Source of the DNA: Thermococcus sp. 21S9 | Lineage (GTDB): Archaea > Methanobacteriota_B > Thermococci > Thermococcales > Thermococcaceae | DNA: 64,000 nt | Direction: 5' to 3' | Assembly (NCBI RefSeq): GCF_012027635.1 | Contig: NZ_SNUS01000001.1 | Coordinates: forward strand, 248,001-312,000 | Part shown: positions 16,635 to 54,517 of the stretch, piece after piece | Layout of the letters: each line of letters opens with the position of its first letter | Position numbering within the stretch: position 1 is the stretch's first letter | Position numbers and translations under genes: made by a program | The notes under the pieces: model-generated | Told to the model about the DNA's origin: nothing | Seen by the model: the letters and a program-made list of their open reading frames with translations, nothing else | Databases searched by the model: none

Positions 16635-17852
16635 ATGGAAACGATTCCACTTTTAGCAGGGTTAGTCATGGGTTTGGTGACCTCCTACACCGACCTGAAG
16701 ACCGGTTTTATCTTCGACAACCACGTTTCCGTTCTTTTAGCACTCGTCGGGAAGCTTCTCGGCTGGGATGAGGGCGAGGAAGAGATTTCCCTCCCGAAGT
16801 GGCTCGTCAAACTGCCGGTCCCGGCCGTGGAAGTTGGCATAATCTACTACCTCTACAAGGGACTGAGTGAGGGTAGCGTTCTGGTCGCGCTCTCGGGAAT
16901 AATAGCCCTGTTCGTGGGGCTGATTCTCGGCCTGCTCCTCTTCTACATTGGAGCCTGGGCAAGCGGTGACGCCATCATCTTGGCAGGTTTCTCCGCGCTC
17001 CTGCCTTACCCCCCTGACACGGCAAGGATAGTCGCCCCGTACTACATCCACTACCCGCTTTATCCGATAGCGATTCTCCTCAACGGTCTCATAGCTGTGT
17101 TCCCGTTCATTTTCATCTACGCTTTCGGTGTAATAATAGCAAGAAAGCGCTTCTCCGAACTCAGGGAGATATTCGTTTCCGGCGCCGGCCTCACCGTAGA
17201 GCTGTCCCTCTGGATTATGGGTGCCCTGGGAGTAAAGGTCATCCTTGAGGAGGGACTCGGCGTATCATTGAACCTCATCCTTGGCTGGCTCCTCGCGATA
17301 GTCCTCATAACAATCTTCGGCAAGCTCAGGAGAATCGGTGATGTCGCCGGAGCGCTTGTCCTGGTGTATCTCCTCTACCTCTCCCCCGAAAACACACTAC
17401 TGGCGTTCCTGAGGCTCCTCGCGTTCCTCTACGCCTTCAAGGTGTTCCTGGCACTCGTCAAGTTCATAAGGTGGGAGGTTCTCGTGGAGGAAGTGCCGGT
17501 TGAGGAGCTAAGGGAATGGGACATTCTTGGGGAGACCGTCTTCGAGAAGGACGGGGAAATCGGACGCGACAGGACGGACCCCTTCGAGAGGCTCAAGGTC
17601 GCGCTCCTGAAGGCGGACCTTTCGCTCCTAAAGCCGGACCACGGAAAGGTCATAGCATCACCAACGGCGGAGGGACTAACGAAGGAGCAGATTGAGAAAC
17701 TCAAACGGCTCGTGGAGGAGGGGAAGCTGGAGAACAGGTTCCTTAGAAAGAAGGCGATGCCCTTTGCCCCGGCGATATTCCTCGGCTTCCTGATAAGCTA
17801 CTTCATCGGCGACATCTTTTGGTGGCTTGAGCTCAAGCTGATGGGCCTTTAA
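16635..17852 (+). CDS. A24-family prepilin/prearchaellin peptidase
   Basis: This is a 405-residue integral membrane aspartic protease. The first catalytic Asp is in SYTDLKTG (residues 17-24) and the second in the G-x-x-D-like WASGDAIILAG (about residue 116), the usual A24 pair. It is longer than archaeal FlaK (about 230), owing to extra membrane segments and a cytoplasmic loop around residues 275-375. The close pilin gene upstream suggests it processes class III pilins (EppA-like); whether it also cleaves the archaellins in this window is open. GAGGTGAAAGT precedes ATG 16635. Confidence 0.82.
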   Translation: METIPLLAGLVMGLVTSYTDLKTGFIFDNHVSVLLALVGKLLGWDEGEEEISLPKWLVKLPVPAVEVGIIYYLYKGLSEGSVLVALSGIIALFVGLILGLLLFYIGAWASGDAIILAGFSALLPYPPDTARIVAPYYIHYPLYPIAILLNGLIAVFPFIFIYAFGVIIARKRFSELREIFVSGAGLTVELSLWIMGALGVKVILEEGLGVSLNLILGWLLAIVLITIFGKLRRIGDVAGALVLVYLLYLSPENTLLAFLRLLAFLYAFKVFLALVKFIRWEVLVEEVPVEELREWDILGETVFEKDGEIGRDRTDPFERLKVALLKADLSLLKPDHGKVIASPTAEGLTKEQIEKLKRLVEEGKLENRFLRKKAMPFAPAIFLGFLISYFIGDIFWWLELKLMGL

Positions 17853-17862
17853 AGTTTTAAGG
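17847..17862 (+). promoter_or_regulatory. TATA box for the intergenic RNA
   Basis: CCTTTAAAGTTTTAAGG spans the stop of the peptidase gene. A start 25 bases downstream falls at 17878-17885, exactly where the GC-rich structured segment begins. Confidence 0.5.
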
Positions 17863-17880
17863 CCTTCTCCCAATTCTCTC

Positions 17881-17940
17881 CTGGCCCGGCGCCCGCCCTC
17901 CCTGGGGAATCGTGAACCGGGGGTTCCGGTCGGGCCGACA
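17881..17940 (+). ncRNA. Candidate H/ACA guide RNA
   Basis: This is a very GC-rich intergenic segment, a known mark of structured RNA in hyperthermophiles. TGGCCCG (17882-17888) can pair with CGGGCCG (17931-17937), and ACA follows at once (17938-17940), as in archaeal H/ACA RNAs. The inner part can form a second stem (CTCCC with GGGGG) separated from the first by an internal loop that could serve as the pseudouridylation pocket. A GUGAA element in the upper part may form the kink-loop. The target was not identified. Confidence 0.5.
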
Positions 17941-18000
17941 GGGGGATGACGAGCTTTTGCTTTGCCGAGCGGTGAGGAGCACGCCCTTCACCGACCCCTT
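17940..18000 (+). ncRNA. Candidate C/D box guide RNA overlapping the end of the HAD gene
   Basis: It has box C ATGACGA (17946-17952), exactly 12 bases of guide, CCGA (17965-17968), a 3-base spacer, C'-like GTGAGGA (17972-17978), exactly 12 bases of guide (17979-17990) and CCGA (17991-17994). AGGGG before box C can pair with CCCCT after box D. The D boxes are CCGA instead of CUGA. The second guide (GCACGCCCTTCA) is complementary to the UGAAGGrCGUGC segment near the 5' end of 23S rRNA. The 3' part overlaps the stop codon of the minus-strand HAD gene. Confidence 0.5.
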
Positions 18001-18608
18001 ATCAGTCCCTCGACTATCTCCCTGACTTCCCTCAGGCTCTCGACGACGTGGTCGCCTTCGACTCCCTCATGCGGGTTTATCGCTATCGCAACGTCCGCCT
18101 CGCGGAACATGCTGAGGTCGTTGAAGCCGTCGCCGACCGCTATTGTCAGTTCCGGCTTAAGCTCCTCCTTGAGCCTTCTGAGTATCGCGCCCTTCCCCTC
18201 GAAGTCAACCCTTGGAATGACGCCTGCGACTTTCCCGTCCTCAAAGATTAGCTCGTTGGCGAAAACGTAGTCGGCTTTAAGCTCCCTCACGACCCTTCCA
18301 GCCAAACACATCAGTCCGCTCGAGAGGAGGGCTATTTTGAAGCCGTTCTCGCGCAGGAACTCCATCAGCTCAAAGGCGTAGTCGTTGTACTCGACCGAGT
18401 CTGCCCACTCGAGGATTTCCTCTTTCCTCCGGCCAATCCAGAGCGAGGCGTCTAACTCGGCCCACTTCGCGTAGTCAATCTTTCCTGCGAAGAAGAGCTC
18501 CGCGTACTCCTTCCCCTTCTCCCACGTGCCGAACTTCTTGTGGAGCTCGACCCAGCTCGAGCGCGCCTTTACAAGGGTCCCCTCAACGTCGAACGCGATA
18601 AGCCTCAT
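17988..18608 (-). CDS. HAD-family phosphatase, phosphoserine phosphatase-like
   Basis: The 206-residue protein has HAD motif I FDVEGTLV (Asp7 with Glu at +2 in place of the usual Asp), motif II ALLSSGL, Lys in FEGKGAIL and motif IV AVGDGFNDLSMF, which is typical of the SerB-type C1-capped group. The Glu in motif I (DxE) is also found in some phosphoserine phosphatase homologues. Substrate is uncertain. GGTGAT precedes ATG 18608. Confidence 0.8.
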   Translation of the reverse strand: MRLIAFDVEGTLVKARSSWVELHKKFGTWEKGKEYAELFFAGKIDYAKWAELDASLWIGRRKEEILEWADSVEYNDYAFELMEFLRENGFKIALLSSGLMCLAGRVVRELKADYVFANELIFEDGKVAGVIPRVDFEGKGAILRRLKEELKPELTIAVGDGFNDLSMFREADVAIAINPHEGVEGDHVVESLREVREIVEGLIRGR

Positions 18609-54390: not shown

Positions 54391-54517
54391 AGTGGCCGGC
54401 GGCGTTCCCGGTTTCCCGCCCCCTCCCGGAGGGCAGTACACCCGGGAACGCAGGCGGGCTTAACTTCCGGGGTCGAAACGAGACCGGGTGTAACCCCGCC
54501 GCTATGGCCGCCGTGCC
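54391..54517 (-). rRNA. rrf: 5S ribosomal RNA
   Basis: Read on the minus strand, the segment begins GGCACGGCGGCCATAGCGG, contains the conserved CCGGAAGTTAAGC loop and GGTGTACTGCC, and ends GCCGCCGGCCACT, which pairs with the 5' end. This is the standard archaeal 5S rRNA of about 125 bases. It is alone, without 16S or 23S, as is known for extra or separate 5S genes in Thermococcales. A TATA box at 54539-54546 is 25 bases upstream of its 5' end. Confidence 0.95.

Follow-up and report, generated by a model that had tools for sequence, protein, structure and literature searches.

Mixed-class guide RNA locus of a Thermococcus species, a very probable ortholog of Pab21-snoR9, and its distribution among Thermococcaceae

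In Pyrococcus abyssi, a single transcript begins with the H/ACA guide Pab21 and continues into the C/D guide snoR9; Pab21 corresponds to Rfam family RF00065, and the locus is annotated as the C/D RNA snoR9, at 230,449-575 on the minus strand (PMC4652768). In vitro reconstitution of the Pab21 sRNP, which binds L7Ae, has been achieved with L7Ae, Cbf5 and Nop10; pseudouridylation dependent on Cbf5, Nop10, Gar1 and L7Ae has been published in vitro for it, and in its substrate the target U is followed directly by another U (PMC3726423). Also pertinent is the strong propensity of archaeal box C/D RNAs for U:U at the pair termed 3b.3n (PMC5689011).

A counterpart lies in the window considered here, the whole stretch of 64,000 nucleotides of Thermococcus sp. 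21S9 DNA that was analysed. The initial annotation described an H/ACA-like RNA and a C/D-like RNA in tandem behind a promoter and proposed a search with covariance models, and such a search gives a full-length match to RF00065 (snoR9) at 17882-18009 on the plus strand (model positions 1-128 of 128), with 118.4 bits where the gathering score is 90, and E = 4.5e-27 within the window. Very probably, this stretch is orthologous to Pab21-snoR9 and represents, in Thermococcus, a dicistronic gene for two guide RNAs that has a promoter of its own (Table 1). Among related genomes, the same family matches P. abyssi (G004, contig C1) at 230449-230575 (-), the coordinates published, and a model of the H/ACA part only, built from relatives, matches that genome at 230517-230575 (-), within the published locus. 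The locus is thus already known, being catalogued as RF00065 with the mixed H/ACA and C/D transcript published for P. abyssi; from homology, covariation and target match, it would be an ordinary published guide RNA gene with variant boxes in the window's species. The match to the family, the covariation, the position of the promoter and the complementarity to targets bear out the mixed-class reading of the initial annotation, though not the novelty it implied (PMC4652768). Chance is excluded as the origin of the tandem by the Rfam E value, by the covariation and by how widely the sequence is conserved (85 of 94 genomes). Folding energy is no better than that of shuffles (z = 0.4 and 0.1), the block being so GC-rich that this measure is uninformative and an energy argument alone insufficient. 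An exact-pattern scan of genome contigs with GGGGAATCGTGAACC was dropped as too unspecific, nearly all its matches being chance bacterial ones.

Table 1. Features of the guide RNA locus and its flanking genes (positions in the window)
Feature	Position	Strand	Basis or remark
Archaeal A24-type prepilin peptidase-like gene, upstream, ending at the promoter	16635..17852	+	
TATA-like A/T-rich promoter box	17849..17861	+	sequence; overlaps upstream gene's stop codon 17850-17852
H/ACA guide (probable Pab21 ortholog)	17882..17940	+	RF00065; covariation; model R1, 80.5 bits
Pseudouridylation pocket 5′ guide strand, CCCGCC, predicted to pair with 16S GGCGGG	17891..17898	+	columns invariant or nearly so; rRNA scan
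Pocket 3′ guide strand, UUCC, predicted to pair with 16S GGAA directly before target U	17924..17928	+	invariant TTCC columns; rRNA scan
Box C/D guide snoR9 with closing stem GGGG / CCCC	17941..17998	+	RF00065 match; same architecture in 85/94 genomes
Box C AUGACGA (3b = C)	17946..17952	+	sequence
D′ guide GCUUUUGCUUUG	17953..17964	+	rRNA scan; essentially invariant across genera
Box D′ CCGA (3n = C)	17965..17968	+	sequence
Box C′ GUGAGGA (3b = G; G.C with D′)	17972..17978	+	sequence
D guide GCACGCCCUUCA	17979..17990	+	rRNA scan
Box D CCGA (3n = C; C.C with box C)	17991..17994	+	sequence
HAD-IB phosphatase gene, convergent (archaeal phosphoserine phosphatase-like)	17988..18608	-	

The H/ACA half folds as a hairpin at 17882-17937, with a lower stem of 9 bp (17882-17890 with 17929-17937), an upper stem with an apical K-loop, and an ACA box at 17938-17940, which by inspection follows the upper stem by 14-15 nt, as archaeal H/ACA guide RNAs require. 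A stem spanning 17881-17940 and then ACA had been proposed; the fold holds, with 8 covarying pairs, and the coordinates do not, the ACA falling inside that range. Over 28 distinct sequences, 98.1% of cells are paired in the proposed fold, both sides change in 8 of its 15 pairs, none of 500 shuffles reaches the observed values, and RNAalifold, given no structure, predicts the identical fold. The GGA...UGA K-loop has invariant G.A/A.G positions and agrees with the tandem G.A, 10-layer GA stem criterion, with the qualification that some species have a non-canonical pair beside the pocket (columns 19-43), where the tenth layer may amount to stacking alone. In Rfam, RF00065 is typed as C/D-box only, with a model structure different from the functional H/ACA fold; its 'CD-box' label conceals an H/ACA guide at positions 1-59, which automatic annotation will consequently miss. 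The pocket fits 16S GGAA-U-U-GGCGGG, the best 16S site in the window's genome, where a simple pocket scan scores one 23S site slightly higher (22 vs 20); in P. abyssi this 16S sequence is the best rRNA site (23 vs 19). The predicted target is U869 (own-genome numbering, from the start of the Rfam match), and it has a U directly 3′ of it, as does the Pab21 substrate. L7Ae would bind the K-loop and Cbf5 the ACA box, and the H/ACA half would guide pseudouridylation to this site.

In the C/D half, the C-12-D′-3-C′-12-D spacing is exact, the 12-nt guides and terminal stem being as in archaeal box C/D sRNAs; spacing, closing stem, the CCGA of the D boxes and the AUGACGA of box C are present as first described. 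When 16S and 23S are both scanned, the best rRNA match of the D′ guide is 23S GAAAGCAAAAGC, with 11 contiguous Watson-Crick pairs, and that of the D guide is 23S CGAAGGGCGUG, with 10, which agrees with the earlier assignment of this last guide to the 5′ region of 23S. With the modified base taken opposite the fifth nucleotide upstream of box D or D′, 2′-O-methylation is predicted at G206 (D′ guide) and G55 (D guide), numbered in the genome's own 23S from the start of the Rfam match. Both predicted sites are within the first ~210 nt of 23S, so the C/D RNA would touch two near domain I sites. Both guides are almost unchanged across all six genus-level groups. The C/D half would form two L7Ae sites, C/D and C′/D′, with fibrillarin methylating two G residues of 23S domain I that lie ~150 nt from each other; in the window's species, the rRNA modifications themselves are predicted.

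In k-turn nomenclature, 3b is the fifth base of box C and 3n the second base of box D. The CUGA/RUGAUGA consensus has U.U at 3b.3n, which is a strong tendency of the class and not an absolute requirement; here the boxes are the unusual variants CCGA, AUGACGA and GUGAGGA, and the window's clade has C.C at C/D and G.C at C′/D′. The initial annotation had foreseen replacement of U-U by C-C, correctly for the C/D k-turn and wrongly for C′/D′, whose G.C it did not mention. Across the RF00065 family, 3b.3n of C/D is U.U, A.U, C.U, C.C, G.C or G.U, plus two singletons, and that of C′/D′ is U.U, C.C, G.C and a few others. At haplotype level, mutual information is 0.54 and 0.51 within the two k-turns vs 0.17 and 0.11 across them, and in neither k-turn do any of 5000 haplotype permutations reach the observed 3b.3n co-variation. 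On a rough tree of 50 syntenic genomes (flanking genes, ~480 bases), C′5 and D′2 change together on 8 branches vs 1.35 expected (p ~5e-7), C.C and G.C at C′/D′ having arisen independently several times. Co-change of C5 and D2 is not significant on this tree (2 shared branches vs 0.73 expected, p 0.16), and the C/D pair seems to change mostly stepwise (U.U, C.U, C.C). A study of k-turns has Watson-Crick 3b.3n blocking folding in metal ions alone and C at 3b permitting it (PMC4382518); other positions also count. Attention is also drawn to nine loci in which the D′-C′ spacer, elsewhere 2-4 nt, is expanded into an insert of ~14-21 nt (L154, L155, L156, L190, L191, L193, L208, L209 and L211, of G034, G040, G044, G039, G026, G029, G054, G064 and G041, respectively); in most, the insert is a GC-rich hairpin, by which the K-loop would become a full K-turn stem.

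The A/T box AAAGTTTTAA occupies 17851-17860, with TTTTAA at 17855-17860, and is centred ~25 nt upstream of 17882, in agreement with the TATA box claimed ahead of the GC-rich block. Each of the 52 H/ACA-bearing loci tested has an A/T run ahead of the H/ACA half, centred at -31 to -20 from the start of that half (median -25), and the A/T content is 92-98% at -27 to -25. Only 3-7 nt, mostly 5, separate ACA from box C across loci, leaving no room between the halves for a separate C/D promoter, and the one promoter box is ahead of the H/ACA half. A scan for sigma-70 promoters and terminators gave nothing, as expected for an archaeon. Transcription in the window's species is predicted from these features: a single transcript starting at ~17880 would hold the H/ACA guide and, 5 nt later, the double-guide C/D RNA, with the halves presumably separated by processing.

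The unit sits between the convergent peptidase-like and phosphatase genes. The phosphatase stop codon (17988-17990) is inside the D guide, and its last codon, CGG at 17991-17993, is inside box D. A phosphatase stop inside the D guide recurs in ~30 genomes, with box D supplying the last codon, so that the 3n base sets the C-terminal residue, which is R here and Gln, Arg or Pro among relatives. Elsewhere in the window is a 5S rRNA gene, at 54394-54515 (-), with 86.8 bits.

Related species keep the stems and boxes, the point on which the initial annotation let its reading depend: the H/ACA stems covary, and the C/D half is present in 85 of 94 Thermococcaceae genomes, of all six genera (82 by pattern; G059, G060 and G082 by model). 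The H/ACA half is intact (at least 55 bits) in 62 of the 94, of three genera, and always just before the C/D half; as it was never found apart from the latter, its absences are attributed to repeated loss. Of the 85 C/D-bearing genomes, 23 have no intact H/ACA half, it being gone from groups g2, g4 and g6 and from G042, G054, G064 and G067, truncated in G091 and G092, and decayed in G056 and G066. In G054 and G064 (L208 and L209 being their respective loci), the promoter box is absent as well and the C/D RNA begins at the peptidase stop codon, suggesting that it may be released there from the 3′ end of the mRNA. Four genomes have the syntenic gap with neither half, the convergent genes abutting or nearly so (L226 in G035, L225 in G046, L227 in G055 and L228 in G063), and no strong copy of the sRNA was found elsewhere in these four, the genome of G063 being incomplete. 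In nine others (G042, G067, G001, G093, G019, G020, G021, G033 and G072), the whole unit is inverted within the same intergenic gap.

Weak matches of the Pab21 model R1 in genomes that lack the H/ACA half, examined in G050, G054, G055, G064 and G028, were rejected as relocated H/ACA copies. Those of the first four (27-35 bits) belong to multi-hairpin H/ACA arrays that look like HgcG/Pab40, and HgcG-like multi-hairpin RNAs are their likely source; in G028 the match has the look of an unrelated hairpin. The arrays themselves (L204-L207, of G055, G050, G064 and G054, respectively) are H/ACA hairpins in series resembling HgcG/Pab40.

Given this pattern of loss, it could be that only the C/D half matters, with the H/ACA half carried along as a passenger in decay, as its absence or breakage in over a quarter of the C/D-bearing genomes, with truncated remnants and decayed copies among them, would lead one to expect. 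That decay is lineage-specific, though, and in the window's genome and 61 others the H/ACA fold is intact, with compensatory changes and invariant guide strands, which makes the passenger explanation quite improbable. The converse, that in this clade the C/D half has degenerated and has no function, its sequence kept through overlap with the 3′ end of the phosphatase gene, draws on boxes that depart from CUGA/RUGAUGA, with C.C and G.C where archaeal box C/D RNAs strongly have U:U (PMC5689011), and on the phosphatase stop codon, overlapped by the D guide and box D. Yet the guides are essentially invariant also where the unit is inverted and overlaps the peptidase gene, or is elsewhere, as in Pyrococcus; the change in box D gives the protein a different last residue (Q, R or P), so that protein selection does not account for it; and the C′/D′ changes are paired, which indicates selection on the RNA. 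Degeneracy of the C/D half is accordingly rated less probable still.

Overlap of the peptidase stop codon by the promoter box, open reading frames found mechanically (e.g. 17857-17991 on the minus strand), and the G054 and G064 cases, in which the C/D RNA without an H/ACA half directly follows the peptidase stop, might be taken to mean that the conserved element, instead of being a guide RNA gene, encodes a small protein or forms a structure in the 3′ UTR of the peptidase mRNA. Conservation, however, tracks RNA structure and guide boxes and not codons, and where the unit is inverted relative to its neighbours it retains a promoter box of its own, so that a protein or UTR origin is scarcely credible. 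An extension of the reading as a dicistronic guide RNA gene is that the H/ACA and C/D RNPs might stay joined on one RNA of ~120 nt, coupling 16S pseudouridylation to 23S domain I methylation, and that the 3b.3n bases, which drift yet stay paired (U.U to C.C or G.C), might tune folding of each k-turn; this is a long shot.

What is added here is the comparative picture, that of a two-class guide transcript whose upstream half was repeatedly lost and whose downstream half was kept. The natural series of compensated 3b.3n replacements, in k-turn and K-loop, can be used in vitro to test rules of k-turn folding and L7Ae recognition, and there is modest use in the case of a unit flipping in place between two convergent genes. 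The closest relative is Pab21 plus snoR9 of P. abyssi, with the same order, H/ACA fold, guides and targets; the window's locus differs from it in boxes C, D, D′ and C′ (C.C and G.C for U.U) and in its genomic neighbours, and in its H/ACA stems by a few, mostly pair-preserving, changes. The Thermococcales H/ACA sRNAs HgcE/Pab105, HgcF/Pab35, HgcG/Pab40, Pab91, Pab160 and Pab19 are of the same class and have the same protein partners, but their guides are different, and the literature consulted does not describe them as joined to a C/D RNA. A parallel of another kind is provided by archaea and plants, in whose dicistronic tRNA-C/D box RNAs a guide RNA is likewise co-transcribed with another stable RNA (PMC7994747), as is Tko-sR44 with a tRNA (PMC4247193). 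There the partner is a tRNA, whereas the window's locus joins guide RNAs of the two classes.
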